From Liolophura sinensis (taxonomy: Eukaryota; Mollusca; Polyplacophora; Chitonida; Chitonidae), in contig NC_088307.1 of NCBI RefSeq assembly GCF_032854445.1, forward strand, positions 4,838,001 through 4,902,000: a DNA stretch of 64,000 nucleotides, written 5' to 3'. Positions 870-61,300 of this stretch are shown here, one piece after another. A program made the translations under genes and the position numbers. Each line of letters starts with the position of its first letter. Position 1 is the first letter of the stretch. The notes below the pieces were generated by a model. That model was not told the DNA's origin. It ran no database searches and saw only the letters and a list, made by a program, of their open reading frames with translations.

Positions 870-1760
870 GTCGCAAAAAGATACAAGTGGCAATGACCTT
901 ATTCGCTAGGTTTGGGTGATGATATAAATAAAGAAGATACAAGTGGCAATCTTATTCGCTAGGCCTGGGTGAAGATATAAATTAGGAAGATACAAGTGGC
1001 AATGACGTTATTCGCTAGGATGATATAAATAAAGAAGATACAAGTGGCAATGACGCTATTCTCTAGGCCTGGGTGATGATGTAAATAAAAAAGATACAAG
1101 TGGCAATGACTTTATTCGCTAGGTCTGGGTGAAGATATAAATTAAGAAGATACAAGTGGCAATGACTTTATTCGCTAGGTCTGGGTGATGATATAAATAA
1201 AGAAGATACAAGTGGCAATGACGTTATTCTCTAGGCCTGGGTGATGATATCAATAAAAAAGATACAAGTGGCAATGACTTTATTCGCTAGGTCTGGGTGA
1301 AGATATAAATTAAGAAGATACAAGTGGCAATGACCTTATTCGCTAGGTCTGGATGATGATATAAATAAAAAAGATACAAGTGGCAATGACTTTATTCGCT
1401 AGGCCTGGGTGATGATATAAATAAAAAAGATACAAGTGGCAATGACTTTATTCGCTAGGCCTGGGTGATGATATAAATAAAAAAGATACAAGTGGCAATG
1501 ACCTTATTCGCTAGGTCTGGGTGATGATATAAATAAAAAAGATACAAGTGGCAATGATTTTATTCGCTAGGCCTGGGTGATGATATAAATAAAAAAGATA
1601 CAAGTGGCAATGACTTTATTCGCTAGGCCTGGGTGATGATATAAATAAAAAAGATACAAGTGGCAATGACTTTATTCGCTAGGCCTGGGTGATGATATAA
1701 ATAAAAAAGATACAAGTGGCAATGACGTTATTCGCTAGGCCCGGATGATGATATTAATGT
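870..1760. repeat. 56-bp satellite, 16 copies
   Basis: GATACAAGTGGCAATGAC recurs at 880, 936, 989, 1037, 1093, 1149 and then every 56 bp to 1709. Units differ by CCTGGG/TCTGGG and GATGATATAA/GAAGATATAA variants. Two early units are shortened to 53 and 48 bp. Confidence 0.95.
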
Positions 1761-2411
1761 TACGGCCGACATTTATAACTCGTTACCTCTGATCACACAA
1801 ATAAAGAGATGAATATCAGTCGCTGCTGTCTATGTAGTTTGTGTTTGCAGACTTGAATACCAGTATACGTATAGACTTCACGTAGAGTCCAATATAACTA
1901 ATGACGTACAGTGTAGAGAGTAAAACAAGAGCAGCGACAACAGTATGATAGCTGGCAAATGATCTCCCGTAACCCTCAGGGGGTAAATTGAAGCCCCTGT
2001 CAATTTACTTCTGTCAGGGTTTTATTCTAACTTCAAGTAAATTTTTAAATAGTAGCATATTACACACCTTCTACATATAGCACCATAGCTTAAGCAGAAT
2101 TAGGTAAAAGAAATTGCACTGATGTTTACTGCAAGTTATTAGATATAAGTGGTAAAAAAAAATCACATTTAATACACAATAACATGAAAACACTCATCCA
2201 CTATTCACACTATTGCAATATTGCCTGAAGCAAAGAGATAAACATCTCCGTGCAACATCCAGTGTGAAACATTTCTAGTACGACAAACGTGGCCTTATAC
2301 AATTTTAATTTTAAAAGTTCATGGAAGCGGACGTCAAAACAGAGGTCGGAGAGTAATTTATTCAGTAAAAAAGGCAATGGTAGCTATATGGGTCTAATTG
2401 GTACAGGCACA

Positions 2412-2530
2412 TTTCTGTCCTCTGCTTACACACCGTGTCTAGTGTAACTTCTGTCGTCTGCTTACACGCCGTGTCTAGTGTAACTTCTGTCGTCTGCTTA
2501 CACACCGTGTCTAGTATAACTTTCTAGTAC
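2412..2530. repeat. 39-bp tandem repeat, about 3 copies
   Basis: TCTGCTTACACACCGTGTCT with AGTGTAACTTCTGTCG repeats three times; a single further unit lies at 2683-2710, 150 bp away. Confidence 0.8.
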
Positions 2531-3204
2531 GGTTGCAAGCAGCTTCATTTCTTGAGTCTTTTTTTAGTTTTGTTAATTAATTTGTGCATTTGTTTATTCA
2601 ACCCCGTATAGAATAATATAGTATATATATACATAAAGCAGGCGGAGGGGGGAAGGCGTTGGGGTATCTGACATGTAAACTTCTGTCGTCTGCTTATACA
2701 CCGTGTCTAATATTATGCACCTTTCAGTTTGCTTGCACTCCGCTTTGTTATACTGGATTTTTTTCTATTTCAATTAATGTCTTACTTATTATTCAGCTTT
2801 CGTTAAATTGCTGTATTCAAGAATATTGTATATGCCTTAGTAGCTTGCCGTGGGGTATTACTGACAAAACCTGGCTGACTAGTTATACTCAGAAGTACTA
2901 TAAAGTTAAAGCTTGATGCTTGACGCTGACGTCTGAAGTCCCAATGGTTTATTATTAGCTAGAATTAACGGTTCTGCCAACATCGACCACCCAAACACAC
3001 CCAACAACAAACGCACGCACATACGGGTCAAATACAAACTTCAAAGTACATAATTTATAGCAGATGCTGATAAAATTGCTACACCATTTTTATTTGTCAG
3101 TATACATGTACAGCCTTAGTACTATTTATATTCATCGCCATACACAGAAAATGTAGGCATGCATATCGCCCCCAAAGGCTGCCAATTTCTTTTTATATGT
3201 ATGT

Positions 3205-43300: not shown

Positions 43301-46300
43301 CAATCTACTTAGTCTATGATCGCTTTGGCCCCAGCAGTTTGCCATTAGGCCATGACATGCTCTCTACATGCACTTTCCAAATGATAGGTCGCTGGAGACA
43401 CTCACCTCAAACTTCCTCATTTCTTGTTGTAAACTGTCCAACTTTACTGCATTTTCCTCAATCTTCTTGTCCAAGCTGGCTGGATCACCCAGAGCATTAT
43501 TATCATTGTACACCTGCTTCATCTTCAGCAATCCTTCCCTGTAACCAGAAAATATCACCTCCTGTACCATGATATCGATGTCACAACTTCTCCCAAGGGG
43601 TGAATATGTCACGAGCTGTAGCAAGATGGGTATGTCACAACTTGTACTGAGAGATATATAATCTATCATTTCTACCTCCAGATACTGAGATAAGGTATAT
43701 TTCTCTTAGCTTACAAGATGTGCTACCTGACATTTCTGCAGTTTCACATGTAATATTTCTGTTCATACTTTCTATAATTTCTACCTCCATTGTTTAAGGC
43801 CTGACAAGTTGTGTTTCCTTTCTGTGGTGTCATATCACTATTTATACTCTCTATCATTTCTATCTTCGCTACAGAAGAGCTGACAAGATGTGTTACCTTT
43901 CTGCAGTTTCCCGTGTAATATCTCTGTTTATACTCTCTATCTTTCCTAATAACCGTTTCTTCCGCTGGTTGGGAGGTAAGTCGCTGAAATCTTCCTTCTG
44001 TTCATCCACCTGTAGAGCAAAAAACAGAAAAATTACATCCATGTGCAAGGAAAACAAAAAACAAACAGAAAAAAAAACACCGACATTATTACTATTTCAT
44101 GGGAAAACTGGATATTGAATATTGGTCTTTTGGTTATAAATGATTGCAAAATCTTTCTAGCTATTCCAGTTTCCTCTCTGGCCATATGGGGGAAGGTCTA
44201 TCAGTAACCTGCGTATGTTCGTGGGTTTCCTCCATGGTCTGCCTGGTTTCCTACCCACCATAACACTAGCCGCTATCGTATAAGTGAAATATTCTTGAGA
44301 ACGGCGTAAAACACCAATCATATAAATACATAAATTTAGGCACATGCACACAGAAGACTTGCTTTGTGTTACGATTAGTTAACAGAACAAGACAAAAAGT
44401 TTAGTTAAAGTTAAGTGCAGTTCCTTCAATCACATCAACTGAGAATTTTTTCCTTTTAGACAAAAATATTAATGGCAATTCATCACAATGAAATAAAGCC
44501 TTATTCTGTCACAATCTGGCACATGTAACAACTGGTATAATGTACTCGTTTCACATTCTTTTGTCTCTTTCAACAACAAACATGACCTTGAAATGGTACC
44601 CTTTCCACACAGGAACTATTTTCATTGGTCTGTGAGTTTTTCATCGTATGCATGTTTCTATCACATTTTATAATATATGTAAAAGTACACTCTGGATGAC
44701 ACCCATCAGCATGAACAACAAATATCATATGTACAAAAAAATGAAACCTCACATATCAAAAATTTATGCAGAAAGAATTTCACCAGCTCATGGACATTCA
44801 CTTAATAACAGTTATTGAGTATTAATCTTTTTCATGCTCAGGACTATTCTGTACCTAAGTCAGCAAAAACCACTTCACTGAAATAAGTATTTATTTATTT
44901 CACTGGTACTTCATTCAACACTGAAACACACTTCACCCCAACAGGTAGGAGACTGGTCAGGTTTGCTGGTGGAGGAAACCAGTCAGGGTAAAGAGGAAAC
45001 CAGTCAGGGTAGAGAGAAAACTAGCTGTAGTCAAGAGGAAACCAAACAGGGTAAAGAGGAAACCAGTCAGAGTAAAGAGGAAACCAAACAGGAGAGCAAC
45101 TGACGGGTGACCTGACAAACTTTTATTTACGCTTTAGAATATGTTCTGTAAAATAAAATGTGGACACAAAAGACACCATGTATATAATGCAGTGCACTTG
45201 TACTGTACATATATAGTTTCACCTCACACCATGTGGATATAAGGACTATAAAGGCATACTCAATGTTAACTACAATAAACATGCATATATACAACACAGA
45301 ATAATGGCAAACAAAACATCAACAAATAAAATATTTTTAAAAAATTTATGATGAATAATTCATAATTCTGAAGAAAAAAAATCAAAGTAATTCTGGCGTT
45401 CCAATAACATGGCCCATAACTGCTGTAGACATATCAAAGACATACTTAACTGTCACATTCTCCACATAAATGAAAATGACACGCTTAATAATGACAGAGC
45501 AAAATAAGATTATAAATGTAATCTGAAAAATAAAGTCAGTGAGCTTCATGCTTTGAATACAATGGTTTCAGTATCGCTACATGTATAAGTCAATCTAGTC
45601 CAGATTAAAAGAGGAAAAAAAAAAAGGGGAGGACCACCACATTCATCTATGATGATAAAAGAAAAGGTTAAATGGGTGCTGAAGGTATAAATCCTAAACT
45701 TCCAGACAGCAATGTTTGCCAGTTCTGCAATATTTGGGAGTTTCCAGGTGCCTATAAAAAACATCTTGTATAAAACGCTCATGCCATAAAGATACGGTTT
45801 ACATGCTAATATACAAATCTGTCTGGACTACTAGTCAGGCGATTTTCTGAATATAGTCTATAGCACTATTTCTCAATGGCTTTGGCCAGTTTTCACTTGA
45901 ATGCATTTGAAGAAACATTAATGTAGTTTTCTCTTCAAGTTGTCCGAGACTGTCCTAAATTTTCATAACATAGACGTACCCTAATTCTTCAACCTTTTCA
46001 GCTGCCTCTGCAACCAATATTTTGAAACGTCCTGAGAACGAGGTAAATACTTGGCACAGTTTTATGATGCTTCCATCTTTAATGCCACAAACTTATCATT
46101 ATCAGCGTCATTTTCGTAATGACTGCGAGCATAAATTCTACTGATAAAAAGTCCTTTAGTGGTTGAAAAGGTTCAAGATTTACAGTAAGCAGAGCAAGCA
46201 ATATGATCATACCAGACTTTTTTTTTTACAATTATTCTTTCTTTCATTTTACATACATGAGAGGATTGTAAATTACAAACAAATCAGGGAAGAACTGGCA

Positions 46301-52300: not shown

Positions 52301-55300
52301 CAGGAAGTTTTAGGTCAAATATAGCATTGATTCCTGGCTGAATGGAAACCACTGTACCTTGGGAAGTACCTGACAAACCCTCCGACTTAAGGCTGTAACC
52401 ATGCTGCAGTCTGACACAAAATTCAACCTCACCGATTGTATATAACTACTGTAAATCTTCAACCTTCTCAACCAGTAAACCACTTTTTTCAGCTGAATTT
52501 GCAGTGCAGGAATACAATTATTAGGAATATGCTCCTAAAAATGACCTGTTTGTGTCATTAAAGATGCAAGCTATGAGTATAATTTCTCTATACCGAATAG
52601 TTCTCTCAAAATGCTTCAAAATATTGGTCGCAGTAGTGGTTGAAAAGGTTGAAGAATTACGGTACATGTACCAGCATGAAAATAATACAGGCTCTATTTG
52701 TATTTATCTATTTATTTGATTGGTGTTTTACGCCGTACTCAAGAATATTTCACTTATACGGCAGCAGCCAGCATTATGGTGGGAGGAAACTGGGCAGAGC
52801 CCGGCGGAAACACATGACCATCCGCAGGTTGCTGAAGGACCTTCCCACGTACATGTTTTATTTCCAAAGATTCTATCAGAAACCTGTTGACAGACTGTGA
52901 TTTTGTGGTGTGTACATGCTTCCACTGGACACCTCCAGCACATGAAAGGAGCTTAAGGAATTAGAGTATATCAGACACGCCTACCCCTACTGAACGTAAT
53001 ATGTACACACACTCATATTTACGTGTACAAATCGAATTTTACATGTACAAAATTGCCACAACAATGTGGGAGATATATTTTTAAGCCTTCTTAAAAATCA
53101 CTTCAAATGAAAACACCAATCCAAAACAGTTTTAGTTACGGTAACCTTTTACTTATGTCACCATGACTAAGAGATGTCAGGAATTTCCAAAAATGGGGGC
53201 TAAGGTACACTAGAGGGAAACAGAAGACTTTGGTGTGTTAGTTTGGGTCATTAAGAGGAAAATTCTGCATGTTCTACTTCAAGATAATGAAGTAATTAAG
53301 GATTTAACATGTTTAGCTGGTGTATAATCTTTGATATGTCCTGTATATTTTCTGTGATCAGGTTTTTTATGAAGGCTTATTGTAAAAAAGAAAATGCAGA
53401 TCTGAACAAATGTCACACATATGGATACCCTAAAATATCTGTGAGAGAAGCAATATTAAATTCATTGAGTTTGATAGCCGCTCTAGGCAGGGGACCTGTA
53501 CTGATCATGTCATGAAGTGGATTTTTCAGTTATGAGACTGTAATTCTGAAAATTAAGGGTGCTTGTATAAGAATTTCTCCCTGTAAATGACTTGGTGATT
53601 TTACATCCGCTTTCCTCTTACACATCACCACCAGGCATTTGATCACCAAACATTTTGCCAGGAAAAGCGTGCTCAGTGACAAGGGTTGACATTAAAAGAC
53701 GGAATAAAAGGGTCACCATTCAGAAACCCTTTGCATGCTACGTTTAAGCCAGAGTAATTTGCAAGTTGGGGGTTTCCTGCAAAATCCTCATTGTAATCTG
53801 AATGCTAAAATAGTGTATCTGATACTAAAAATGGACTTGTATAGAAACAAAACATGAAATCAGACTTTGAATCTTATTTTCTTCCGTGTATGTCGTCTAA
53901 GCGTATTTCATACTTCTTGGGCATACAGTCGTATTTTCTACATGTTTGGCGTGGAAAATACGCCCAAATTGTACAAGTAGGCAGGTCTGGTAAATGATCT
54001 ATTACTTCAGGGAATTTTTCATCAACTTATCAGCCTGCAGAATGAACTGTACTGCAGAATAGTGATAAGTTTGTGAACAATCATGTGCAGTAATTGGTAA
54101 TTTACCATTAATCAGGTAAAATTTTCATGAACTTTCTTGAAAAATTCTGTGAAATTTAACGCAGACTATTCTACCACAAATTTACAAGACACATACTGGC
54201 ATTTAGAGCTTGGAACTGAGGTTCCCTATACACATATGCACGTAGTACAAGAGAGCCAATACTGACCTTTGACACGCTGAACAGACCAAAAATTCCTGTT
54301 CGCTTCTTTGATTTGTTGGTCGTTGTTCCCTTGCCCGCGCTTGAGTGATTAAACTGCCGGCTGGGCGTAGAGTTCTCGCGATGAAGGTCTTGTGAGCTTC
54401 CCCCAGAGCGGAGGTCTTCAAACGGAATGTCGGTGGGGATTTGGAAGCCCGATTTATACTTATCTATAACAATTTTAGAATCCTACAAAAAAAGACACAA
54501 GTAATGTAAGCTTACAGCAAGAAATTTCACATGTAAAAATTTTGTCCAAGAGTTCATGGGCGAACAAATGTCACAAAATATTACTTTTAGTGCTGAAACT
54601 CACAAAATGCATCAGTTTAACACTTAAACTAACTGCAAAATCTGATTTATTGCATCAAGATTTGTCTATCCCCTAAAAAGGAAACCACACTGACTATTGA
54701 GACTAACTGGTTGTTTGAAGAGACAGCCAATTATCATGTGACGCTTTCAGCGTTAGTGATTGGCCAAGTTCATAAGGGCTTCCACAGCATGGCTACTTGG
54801 AGTGAATACCCAGTAGCATATCATGTTAACTTGCAAACAAATCTCTATGATCAGTAATTCTCAGAACCAGGCAAAATGTGCAACTCAGTCATTAGAGACA
54901 TATTAAGTCATTAACTGCATCCATAAAATATGATCACTTCACCATTTTGATCCTTCTCAACCCTGTAACTTCATCTTCACATCTCTAATTCACCTTTAAA
55001 AGCTCCCTAACTTTATCATTTAACATTTCTTCATTACCTCTCCCCACCCCCATTCCCCCACCCACTACCACCCACACAAAGACATTACAAACAACAAGCA
55101 AATTCAGAGTCTGTGGCGTACCTGCGCAGGGTCGACGGCCTCCCCAGCTTTTAATACTCCATCAATACAGGTGTTAATTATTGGGACTACATTGCGCTCT
55201 ATTTCAGCCGTGGCTTTTATAAACTCCCCTATACGCACTATCCTCCTCTCATCCATGTCTTGTAATTGCTGCAAAAATAAAAAAATAAAAAAAAAATAAG

Positions 55301-58300
55301 GAAAAAAAACATTTTAAAGTCACATTTTTGAAACCATCTAAAACAACGTCAGTAATAATACTAAAATATAACTGTCGAAGACAGCCATTCCAGGAAATGG
55401 GCTCTGCACATTCTGAGAAAAATGTGGAAAAAGAAATTGAAAAAGGATGACCTGGATTGGAGACAGGTATCACGTACAATGGAACTAGTACAATGGGTCA
55501 GCACAGAGATTGGTCTGGGGTAAGAACGTGGTGAGCCTGTGGCATGAGGACTGCGTGGGGTAAGGATGTGGCCTGAGGGCTGTGGCATTGGACTGTGCAG
55601 TGCTCTTTATGTGTGTCGTTGGCCTGCATCAGAAGCTGGTGTGATGTAAACACGTTGCCATAAGGGGCACTCACCTGGAAGCCTGTGGCATGAGGACTGT
55701 GTAGTGCTCTTGCTCTGTTGTTAGTCTGCATCAGAAGATGGTGTGGGGTAAGGACATGGCCCTAAGGGGTACTCACCTAGAAAGCCTGTAGCATGAGGGC
55801 TGCGTGGGGCAAGGACGTGGCAATGAAAGGCACTCACCTGGAAAGCTTGTGGCATAAAGACTGTGTAGTGCTCTTGCTGTGTGTTGTTAGTCTGCATCAG
55901 AAGATGGTGTGGGGTAAGGACATGGCCCTAAGGGGTACTCACCTAGAAAGCCTGTAGCATGAGGGCTGTGTGGGGCAAGGACGTGGCCCTGAAAGGCACT
56001 CACCTGGAAAGCTTGTGGCATGTAGACTGTGTAGTGCTCTTTCTGTGTGTTGTTAGCCTGCATCAGAAGATGGTGTGGGGTAAGGACATGGCCCTAAGGG
56101 GTACTCACCTAGAAAGCCTGTAGCATGAGGGCTGTGTGGGGCAAGGACGTGGCCCTGAAAGGCACTCACCTGGAAAGCTTGTGGCATGAAGACTGTGTAG
56201 TGCTCTTTCTGTGTGTTGTTAGTCTGCATCAGAAGATGGTGTGGGATAAGGACATGGCCCTAAAGGGTACTCACCTAAAAAGCCTGTAGCATGACGGCTG
56301 TGTGGGGCAAGGACGTGGCCCTGAAAGGCACTCACCTGGAAAGCTTGTGGCATGGAGACTGTGTAGTGCTCTTTCTGTGTGTTGTTAGTCTGCATCAGCT
56401 GGGCAGCATACTCATTCTTACACTCGTCACAATGTTGAGTCTTGTTCAAAGATATATTCTTATGCTGGAAAGGAAAATAGTTGAAATCCTAATCATTGTA
56501 AGACAAAATGCAAACAGTTGATTCTTGTACTCTTAGTATGGAAGCCCAATGGCAAGGGCTCATTCCACAAAGCCAATTTTTCTTAATGTCAAAATTGACA
56601 AATTATCATGTGCAATTTATGGCCCTAGGAGTTCTACTTGTGACATACAAGTATTCATCTTGACAAACCATTACTGAGTGTCAAAATTCAATTTAAAATT
56701 TTGACTTAAGTTAAACTGGCATTGTAGAGCTGGTCCCAGATCCTTATGTTCTTATGTTAGAGGGTAAACAGCCAATTCCATCATTTTTTCAAGAATTGTT
56801 ATTTACTGGAACACTATCCCCCACCCAAACATTTTGTTAAAATGACACTTTTTGCCATATTCTAAAACCTTTCACACTAACAAGAAGATTCCAGAAAAGA
56901 TACCTCAGAGCCCAACAGATTCTTTGTGCCCCACGTGGTACCTAACAAACTGTCTGACAGAAAAATGCTGTTGATGCAGCACCAGCTGGATGTGAACTCA
57001 CAGCCTTCCACTAAGGGCAAGTGGTTTGAAAAGTTTGAGTCCTTGTAAGAGAGAGTCTCCATGATTTGTTATGAAGGCATCCACAATGACTGTCCCATTT
57101 GAGGAACACCGTAATGAACATACATGGAAAAGTTAAACAACTCACCTTTTCTACCTCTGCTCTAGATAAATTAATATCATCGTCTGCTCTTTTATAAGCA
57201 TCCTTTGCTCGTTCTGCATCTCCAAATGCCTTTTCATATTTCCGCTTACTCTGAAAGAAGAAGCGATTGGATAAAATAAAAACTCTAGAGAATTCAGAAA
57301 CTCCCCAATATATGTTAATTTCCCTCTTGCTTTAATTCATTTATATCACTGGTGTTTTATGCCTAACTCAAGAATATTTCACTTGCACAACGCGGCCAAA
57401 TGGAAAGAAAACGGGCAGAGCCCGGGAAACCCACACCCTTCTGCAGGTTAGATGGACTCAATGGACTTAATGTAAACCAGCAAGCAAAGGAAGATTTAAA
57501 TGAATGAATAAAAAATTTACCATGATCTGATTTATTGTATTTCTATGCTGGAATTTCAAACCTTTGAAACACATTTCTGCAAGGACAGCGGTTATCCCCC
57601 TTTCAAACAGATTTGATTTCCACAAAAAAACGCTTCCACTATGTTTGTTTCTACATGTATGCTTGGCTTCGAATGCAGCTTTCATAATCACTTGGGTCAT
57701 ATATCACAATAGTGTTTTCCCCATGGACAAAATGCTGCCTCACTCAAATGCCATTGCCAATCAAGACACCACATGACACCCCACCCAATCACAGCATACT
57801 GACATCTTGTGCAGAGTACCAAGCCAGGAAAGCGCCTGCTACTGACCCGACCTTGAATTTACGGTTTAAAGCATGACCCGAGTCTCTGGTTCGGACCAAG
57901 AAAAACCCAGTCCACAGAGTTTTACGGTGTACTCACTCTATCTAACAATTCAACAGAATTCCTCATCTGCTGTTGAAGTCTCACACAGTCTTGTAAATGC
58001 TGAAAAACACAAGGCAAGGTCAATGTATATTTATCATGCACACTGTCATGCTCCAAATCACTTCTGTCCCCGCAACATGCATTCAATGTGATACAGTCTG
58101 TACGTGAAAACTTTAATATGCATTTTATTTATTACTTTACTGATATCATATAAAACCTTCAAGATTAAACCTTGTATAATTCCTATTGATTACTGAATAT
58201 TATGTTATGTCAGATTAAGTGCCTCATATTACTGATTCTTGTATGATCGTCTTTCAAACAATAAAATTTAATGAAATCAACACAACTGGATTTTTTTGTG

Positions 58301-61300
58301 TCAAAAATTTGACAGAAACCAACGTGACATGAATGTTGAGAGGTGTGCTATGAATGGCCTGAGAAGTTATCAGCAGACAAAATATAACACACCAACCTTC
58401 TTCCTCTCTTGTTTCAGCTCCTGAATTAAATTACTGAGGTCCTTTATTATGTTGGACTGTATATTCTCTGCGATGACCTCATGTTGGCCCGCGCTGTCGT
58501 GCAGCTCCTTCAGCATGTCTAAAAACCCCTTGGTACATGTGAAACTGAAAGAGGATACCAATGTGTGATGTATTCTTTGAGTTATTTGACCATGTAATAC
58601 ATGTACATCCAGTCAAGACAGACATCACATGGTTCATACTGCCATGCCTGATATATCACTCCATTTACTGCCTTGATTCGATGGTAACTTGTCAGTCTTC
58701 CTACTACCTCACTGCTATACAACCAGATACTTAACTCCATCAGCCGACAAAGGATTTATGCAAGTAGAAGATTTCAGACATGTCTATCAGATACACTGTT
58801 TAGTGAACACATGGTGGACTAAATTTAGCTTCAAGAAATATTTTGATGCCACATTTATGACAGCAAACCAGTAACTTACTCTTTCTGCCTATTTTGCCCT
58901 CACAATATCAAATTTTACCTAACATCGGCTCTAAATGTGGACAACTTCCTGCTTTCTGTTGTTTTGTCCTTGCTGTCCATCATTAATGACACTACCGCTT
59001 GATTGGATACAGTGCTTACTGATATTTATGAGTTACTGAGTTGGGTGGATTGGTTATTTCTGCATAGCACAAAAAGGTATGCGAAAATGGCTCACCTAAT
59101 AAAGAGATACCTTTGTTCAAAAATGTTTCACTTACAATGTACATGTACCTGAAAGCTGTCTGGTTTGAAGCTAGAGGAAGCCTAAGGGAAACCACTGCCC
59201 AGTTACATGTACATGTAGATGTACCTGACAGCTGTTTGGTTTAAGGCTAGAAGACGCCTAAGGGAAACAACTGCCCAGTTACATGTAAATATACCTGACA
59301 GCTGTTTGGTTTGAAGCTAGAGGGAGCCTAAGGGAAACAACTGCCCAGTTACAAGTAGATGTACCTGACAGCTGTTTGGTTTAAGGCTAGAAGGCGCCTA
59401 AGGGAAACCACTGCCCAGTTACATGTACATGTAGATGTACCTGACAGCTGTTTGGTTTGAAGCTAGAGGAAGCCTAAGGGAAACCACTGCCCAGTTACAT
59501 GTACATGTAGATGTACCTGACAGCTGTTTGGTTTGAAGCTAGAGGAAGCCTAAGGGAAACCACTGCCCAGTTACATGTACATGTAGATGTACCTGACAGC
59601 TGTTTGGTTTGAAGCTAGAGGAAGCCTAAGGGAAAACACTGCCCAGTTACATGTACATGTAGATGTACCTGACAGCTGTTTGGTTTAAGGCTAGAAGATG
59701 CCTAAGGGAAACCACTGCCCAGTTACATGTACATGTAGATGTACCTGACAGCTGTTTGGTTTGAAGCTAGAGGAAGCCTAAGGGAAACCACTGCCCAGTT
59801 ACATGTACATGTAGATGTACCTGACAGCTGTTTGGTTTAAGGCTAGAAGATGCCTAAGGGAAACCACTGCCCAGTTACATGTTTATGTAGATGTACCTGA
59901 CAGCTGTTTGGTTTGAAGCTAGAGGAAGCCTAAGGGAAACCACTGCCCAGTTACATGTACATGTAGATGTACCTGACAGCTGTTTGGTTTAAGGCTAGAA
60001 GATGCCTAAGGGAAACCACTGCCCAGTTACATGTACATGTAGATGTACCTGACAGCTGTTTGGTTTGAAGCTAGAGGAAGCCTAAGGGAAACCACTGCCC
60101 AGTTACATGTACATGTAGATGTACCTGACAGCTGTTTGGTTTAAGGCTAGAAGACGCCTAAGGGAAACAACTGCCCAGTTACATGTAGATGTACCTGACA
60201 GCTGTTTGGTTTAAGGCTAGAAGACGCCTAAGGGAAACCACTGCCCAGTTACATGTACATGTAGATGTACCTGACAGCTGTTTGGTTTGAAGCTAGAGGA
60301 AGCCTAAGGGAAACCACTGCCCAGTTACATGTACATGTAGATGTACCTGACAGCTGTTTGGTTTGAAGCTAGAGGAAGCCTAAGGGAAAACACTGCCCAT
60401 TAACATGTAGATGTACCTGACAAACTTGGTGTGCAAAGCTCCTTGGGACGAGCAAGTGCACTGATTAGATAAGCCGGGTGCATGTACATGTACACGTAAT
60501 TTTATTATGTCAATGGTGGCTTATAAAGAATTAAAGGCAACTGAGATGAATGTCTAACATTAACACATTGCCATAGAAATAAGTTTATTAATTTATGTAT
60601 TTATTTTACCATTCCTTTAAAAACAACTTGAGAACACTAACTTAAATGATGTTAACCCACTGTTTCAGCCAAACGAATCAACTATAGCTTGGAACAAACG
60701 GAGCATTTCACTAAGTACATTGTACCTGATAACCTAGAACCCTGCAGCCAATCCAACGCAAGCTGGGATAAGCATGTGACAGCAAATAGTACACCAAAAA
60801 ACCTTATAGTTATTAGATATAAGCCGGTTTAATGAACTTGTCTGCATATATATGAACTGAATTGTCATGTACAGAGAAATCCTTAAAAAAGATGAATTAA
60901 ATTCACTTACACATAGTCATCCTCTTCTTTCTTCTTCGGCTGATAATTTTTCACCAGTTTTCTGAAATAAACAGGAATTGATTGATTAGGGTTTCAAAAA
61001 ATTTTCATTTATAGGACACTGGTCAGGTTTATAGGTGGAGAAAACCAGACAGCCCGACACACATCACCCACCTTTGCCAGGTACGCATATGACAAATGTG
61101 TTCACTTGATGCCAAAAAGGGAACAAAAAATAATTACATGCATCAGTTAACATTTATTAATAAGTACAGAAAAATGATATACATGAATCCAGAATTATGA
61201 AATCATCAAATTCTTGATTACTGCTGGTACATGTTTTGTTTCGTGACACCTAGAAGGCAATAATAAGTCTTTTATCTTACATAATCCCCAAGATGAGAAA

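Follow-up and report, generated by a model that had tools for sequence, protein, structure and literature searches.

An intron of an F-BAR gene in the chiton Liolophura sinensis carries a tandem array of 166-bp units that straddle an exon-intron boundary, so that 63 nt of exon sequence are repeated together with the donor-side intron. We consider it very probable that this array is a young minisatellite of the type called "mirage" in amphioxus, born across the boundary as a by-product of repeat mutation, whose exon copies are mostly spliced out. The anatomy of the array, the history of its units as read from alignments, the neutral pattern of change among them and the recurrence of such arrays at other exons were observed, and from these we infer the likely mutational mechanism and splicing outcome. 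The array lies in the window, a 64,000-nt stretch of contig NC_088307.1 (C13:4838001-4902000), and searches covered the whole assembly of 609,464,459 bases in 632 contigs.

The F-BAR gene is on the minus strand, and 13 of its exons, between 62339 and 40229, were joined by hand into a single open frame that closes with a stop codon; the start exon of the gene falls outside or escaped recognition, and the join may lack cassette exons from the 10-kb intron (54267-44009). In the joined product, the Pfam profiles HR1_TOCA and FCH scored 107.2 bits (cut-off 27) and 74.3 bits (cut-off 27.8), and SH3_1 scored 22.1 bits, slightly under its cut-off of 22.9. A 127-residue part of the product aligned without gaps to FBP17 (2efl, 1.5e-28) and CIP4 (2efk, 1.4e-27). 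Judged from these matches, the predicted product is a membrane-bending F-BAR protein of the CIP4/FBP17/TOCA type, and the exon beside the array (parent exon, 56336-56464, minus strand, 129 nt, phase 0-0) is predicted to lie within the F-BAR domain, its final 54 nt coding for 18 residues. The next exon (55122-55268, minus strand) opens with QLQDMDERR and has the top-scoring acceptor among the 13 of the gene. The open frame and the domain matches show that the authentic parent exon and its splice sites are intact beside the array. A protein query against the L. sinensis assembly gave four matches, every one at the F-BAR gene locus itself, and on this result a second gene copy or haplotig was rejected. 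Further F-BAR loci of the chiton genome are on C7, C6 and C2.

Tandem Repeats Finder reported the array at 55666-56398 (minus strand) with a period of 166 bp, 4.4 copies and 96% matches, far beyond chance expectation. Alignment agreed, and the observation that the last 54 nt of the parent exon recur serially, donor included, which had been made in a sequence-only reading of this DNA, is thereby confirmed. All copies are on the minus strand. Copy 1 (56170-56223), copy 2 (56004-56057) and copy 3 (55838-55891) are each 54 nt long, free of stop codons, in phase 0 to 0 and code for 18 residues; each is preceded by cttctgatgcag and followed by gtgagtgccttt, and each retains the donor gtgagtgcc. Copy 4 (55675-55725), which was also described correctly as 51 nt long, retains the donor and encodes a scrambled 17-residue peptide. 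By eye it has a 2-nt and a 1-nt gap relative to the other copies, a net loss of 3 nt, and its reading frame shifts in mid-copy. Exactly 9 nt (CTGATGCAG) ahead of a latent AG are common to the parent and all five copies. This motif lies inside the parent exon at 56390-56398 on the minus strand, where its PWM score is 0.82, and it bears out the idea that a coding CAG of the parent now occupies the acceptor position in the copies.

The array has features that go beyond that reading: the mid-copy frame change of copy 4, an internal 61-bp repeat, a 23-nt frameshifting pseudo-exon and a donor-less fifth copy. Every 166-bp unit contains the 61-bp repeat, the two versions of which are identical at 45-49 of 61 positions and which has a strong GTGAGTAC donor of its own. 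Exon-like stretches, here termed B pseudo-exons, end at these donors (56275, 56109, 55943 and 55777). B pseudo-exon 0 (56275-56297, minus strand) is 23 nt long, has the strong donor gtgagtacc and a weak acceptor, and would shift the frame upon inclusion; B pseudo-exons 1 (56109-56131), 2 (55943-55965) and 3 (55777-55799) lie on the same strand. Unit 4 is 102 nt long and lacks the internal repeat. The degenerate unit 5 (55500-55623, minus strand) retains an acceptor-like start at 55623 and has lost its donors.

The units form a homogenised core with a diverged edge. Units 0 (the parent) to 3 are 166 nt each with no indels among them, and their pairwise identities are 94-99%, against 69-84% for pairs that involve units 4 or 5. 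The farther a unit lies from the parent, the less it resembles unit 0: identity goes from 161/166 (97%) in unit 1 to 160/166 (96.4%) in unit 2, 156/166 (94%) in unit 3, 82/102 (80.4%) in unit 4 and 94/124 (75.8%) in unit 5. Units 1 and 2 differ at only 2 of 166 sites, a divergence about equal to the genome heterozygosity of 1.24% given in the assembly description (PMC11068029). At the four intronic sites where unit 0 differs from units 1 and 2, units 3, 4 and 5 match units 1 and 2 by eye wherever they can be read, indicating that the changes occurred in unit 0. When the 166-bp unit was searched against the whole assembly with very common words skipped, all five matches fell at the F-BAR array; on the result of that search, an origin of the unit from a dispersed repeat or transposon was rejected.

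These features suggest the following history. An initial duplication would have taken 63 nt from the end of the exon (9 + 54) and about 42 nt of intron, giving a unit of about 105 bp; the 61-bp internal duplication would then have arisen in one of the units (105 + 61 = 166). Slippage or unequal exchange would have multiplied the 166-bp unit on the side near the parent, with decay of the distal units. The order, from a unit of about 105 bp through internal duplication to multiplication, is the one that unit lengths and alignments favour. In such a process the donor of every unit would be inherited from the parent, and the acceptor-like site would arise as a by-product, as the exonic CTGATGCAG was placed behind C/T-rich sequence derived from the start of the intron. 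Because the same architecture is found at other exons of the genome (see below), an origin by repeat mutation is the economical reading.

We asked whether the copies bear the marks of selection for coding. Among units 0-3, variable sites made up 4/54 exonic and 7/112 intronic positions (Fisher p 0.75), and among copies 1-3 alone 4/54 and 3/112 (p 0.22). The exonic changes amount to about five events, about four of them non-synonymous and one synonymous. Of the 162 possible exonic changes, 31 are synonymous and seven create a stop codon, and the ratio of about 4:1 is the neutral one. There was thus no signal of purifying selection on the coding copies, in which exonic sequence is not more conserved than intronic sequence, at the low power that about five events afford. 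The comparison of synonymous and non-synonymous change proposed in the sequence-only reading revealed no coding constraint. That reading had also found meaning in the preserved frame. Since units 0-3 contain no indels, and about five random exonic substitutions leave a sequence without a stop with probability 0.80, the kept frame in these units is uninformative; the exonic part is no more conserved than the rest, and the peptide of copy 4 is scrambled. A unit length not divisible by 3 (166 bp) is likewise irrelevant to the reading frame after splicing. The sole differences between copies 1 and 2 are two non-synonymous exonic changes, with none in the intronic part (p 0.10), and the residue encoded by codon 12 is, in units 0-3 in turn, S, F, Y and F. 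This exonic excess leans weakly against pure neutrality and toward diversification, with too few changes for such a claim.

The splicing potential of the copies was scored with a matrix built from the gene's own 12 donors and 13 acceptors, a small set that includes the parent donor. The donors of the copies scored 12.3 bits, a value that none of 1361 background GTs reached, and the B donors scored 10.1 bits, reached by 0.15% of them. The acceptors of copies 1, 2 and 3 scored 3.2, 4.9 and 3.2 bits; the true acceptors of the gene span 3.1 to 13.2 bits when each is left out in turn, and 9.6% (copies 1 and 3) or 5.6% (copy 2) of 1131 background AGs in its introns do as well. The coding copies accordingly have strong donors paired with acceptors that are weak yet within the range of the gene, about on par, by this matrix, with the weakest of its 13. 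B acceptors were poor (-2.5 to -1.6 bits). A branch-point-like CTTAC/CTTAT occurs 24 nt upstream of copies 1-4, and the spacing of the copies would leave introns of 112 nt between them. Computed inclusion kept the frame for copies 1, 2, 3 and 4 singly and for 1+2, 1+2+3 and 1-4, in keeping with the proposed in-frame gain of 18 residues per copy for copies 1-3. Every other outcome tested led to a premature stop, namely B pseudo-exons, B pseudo-exons together with copies, exons running from a copy to a B donor, and extension of the parent exon to each of the eight downstream donors. Splicing of the copies is possible by these scores, and the earlier term "spliceable" is plausible; as a whole, that reading was confirmed in what it observed and partly supported in how it interpreted it. 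In most transcripts the exon at 55268 is probably joined to the parent donor and the array removed, and low-level inclusion of some copies may add 18 residues.

An unlikely alternative to a mirage-type minisatellite is that the copies are genuine alternative cassette mini-exons, whose tissue-dependent use would lengthen the F-BAR domain by 18, 36 or 54 residues immediately ahead of QLQDMDERR and so alter membrane curving. The stop-free frames of all seven copy combinations, the very strong donors, acceptors no worse than the weakest true one, the branch-point-like motifs and the intervening 112-nt introns would all fit such exons. However, 5.6-9.6% of background AGs match these acceptors in score, no coding constraint was detected over the approximately five events, and copy 4 is scrambled. 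The parent exon, moreover, aligns without a gap to 2efl and 2efk over the insertion point, so an insertion would be unusual in this rigid helical dimer, and the exon pieces in similar arrays elsewhere in the genome, 8 to 54 nt long, make no obvious sense as coding sequence. We found no sign of mutually exclusive exons controlled by docking/selector pairing, since 55100-57300 contains no inverted repeats of at least 14 nt and RNA folding is unremarkable (z 0.46).

The same fold and lack of inverted repeats speak against the array as a splice regulator, in which nine near-consensus donors would compete for U1 snRNP and tune the parent donor, or would yield frameshifted transcripts that are degraded. 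Nine donors do crowd into about 660 nt (56336 to 55675), their scores are almost without equal in the background, and use of any tested downstream donor from the parent exon or inclusion of a tested B pseudo-exon gives a premature stop. Against this, the B acceptors are poor and the strong donors are merely copied along with the unit, and we regard regulation of this kind as very unlikely. That the array is an assembly artefact, nonexistent or miscounted, is hardly credible. Units as much as 98.8% identical invite such errors, and a mis-assembled mirage is on record in the amphioxus draft genome in the relevant part of PMC3087553. The chiton assembly, however, was made from PacBio HiFi reads of mean length 8,347 bp at 14X, according to its description (PMC11068029), and these far exceed an array of less than 1 kb; in addition, the units can be told apart at identifiable sites, and decayed flanking units exist.

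We then asked whether arrays cross exon edges elsewhere. Loci were drawn from profile matches in the genome (the best 30 of 81 myosin-head, 30 of 132 kinesin and, besides the F-BAR gene, 3 of 4 FCH matches, plus 17 of 138 kinase matches), and every exon was compared with its own surroundings. Among the 63 myosin, kinesin and FCH loci, five had repeats that overlapped the match and four (4/63) were kept after reading, a frequency that is indicative only because loci of one gene partly overlap and few families were sampled. The donor side is involved in three. One myosin locus (L027, array at 990-1514) repeats about 16 exonic nt and the donor in 66-bp units with seven exact copies of the junction; another (L035) repeats 8 exonic nt, with the donor placed by reading, and the donor in 32-bp units with eight exact junction copies, one of them apart from the array; and a kinesin locus (L062) repeats about 54 exonic nt and the donor in 73-bp units with 12 exact junction copies. 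In the fourth, also a kinesin (L049), the acceptor and about 20 exonic nt recur in 64-bp units with nine exact junction copies. The L062 array (1605-3168) has 21.6 copies by Tandem Repeats Finder, and a pattern search found ten exon-like units of 55 nt, each with one open frame; it exceeds the F-BAR array in size, yet leaves only about 18 nt between units. A fifth candidate (L073) was dropped, as its profile match overruns a likely donor into a stop. At L019, L033, L045 and L060, arrays lie near an exon and contain no exonic sequence, and these were not counted. None of the 17 kinase loci had an exon-edge array; the long matches suggest that many of these are single-exon genes with few introns.

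Within the F-BAR gene, 2 of the 13 exons have their end copied into the following intron. The second is an HR1 exon (43897-44009, minus strand), whose 3' end recurs on the same strand as two decayed copies at 43702-43867, identical at 56/69 and 61/76 aligned positions. The first of these copies has lost the GT of its donor. The pair is an older counterpart of the 166-bp array.

Tandem arrays occupied 15.4% of 216,513 bases over 67 loci. Coverage was 0.9% inside the matched exons and rose with distance from them, to 4.0% at 1-30 nt, 8.8% at 31-100, 12.4% at 101-300, 15.4% at 301-700 and 18.3% at 701-1500. The idea that arrays favour splice sites was rejected, since coverage over the 67 loci drops toward exons and shows no attraction of arrays to splice junctions. 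Comparing the 4 of 126 edges crossed by arrays with base coverage gives p 1.8e-5; this value is rough, because the crossings were counted by hand, the edges of the matches only approximate those of the exons and some loci overlap. A high birth rate of arrays combined with removal near exons would give such a profile.

The closest known system is that of the amphioxus mirages, described in PMC3087553 as minisatellites across exon-intron boundaries that do not disturb regular splicing. In the parts of that report which characterise them, mirage units are 81-100% identical, may span a 5' or a 3' boundary, show copy-number polymorphism, were followed by RT-PCR and are suggested to act as a nursery in which new exons and introns arise. 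Those of the globins BflGb6 and BflGb9 have units of 150-160 bp, compared with 166 in the chiton, and in both animals the units span the boundary, many contain AG/GT and the edge units have diverged. The F-BAR array has the anatomical features of a mirage, in that it spans the boundary, leaves the exon intact, has a homogenised core and belongs to a type found in several genes. It differs from those described there in occurring in a mollusc rather than a cephalochordate, in its internal 61-bp repeat and in its 54-nt exon part, which has phase 0 and stays open in three of the copies.

For human genes of segmental duplications, the portion of PMC2812944 on this subject likewise describes internal tandem repeats across exon-intron boundaries, where minisatellite expansion can create new splicing patterns and boundary repeats form new introns. 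These differ from the F-BAR array in their units, which average about 30 bp, in their location in gene families of recent duplication and in being backed by transcripts. For a potato RdRp gene, the account in PMC4974935 gives a duplication across a boundary that turned a formerly exonic motif into a splice site, with proof of the new intron. There the intron-exon side was duplicated and the exon gave the donor, whereas in the F-BAR array the exon-intron side was duplicated and the exon gives the acceptor. The geometry of the motifs in the F-BAR array would allow an intron to be gained within former exon sequence. Tandem exon duplications with alternative or mutually exclusive splicing, as outlined in PMC9013439 and PMC9741552, share the adjacent exon copies; unlike those outlined there, the F-BAR array copies only part of an exon and has no signal of selection.

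These results extend the amphioxus phenomenon to a mollusc and provide initial figures for how often it occurs and how it thins out near exons. The occurrence and frequency of mirage-type arrays in a mollusc are modestly new, as judged from a literature search made without the term "mirage", and we do not claim their absence from print. If the genome-wide frequency equals that in our sample (4/63, mainly motor-domain families), the genome would hold many natural experiments, fresh to decayed, on the birth or failure of exons and introns by tandem duplication. For annotators, the warning is that intronic stretches resembling conserved coding sequence may be copies within a repeat. The copies are raw material for exons, and those of the F-BAR gene most likely do not matter to the protein. 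It is improbable that the chiton genome is a pervasive exon nursery, in which arrays across junctions mint serial splice-site copies in many genes and the three in-frame 54-nt F-BAR copies are already present in some mRNAs as modules of 18 residues that, if helical, make five turns and that diverge at an S/F/Y position.

Two other repeats were seen in the F-BAR gene region. Another intron of the gene contains, at 59137-60415, a 76-bp minisatellite of 17 copies with a donor-like CAGGTACAT in its units; no exon sequence of the F-BAR gene was found inside it. By eye, a dispersed repeat around ttgattggtgttttacgccgtactcaagaatatttcac occurs on the minus strand at about 61570-61310, 44330-44200 and 41820-41550, and inverted at about 52860-52710; it may resemble a mollusc SINE.
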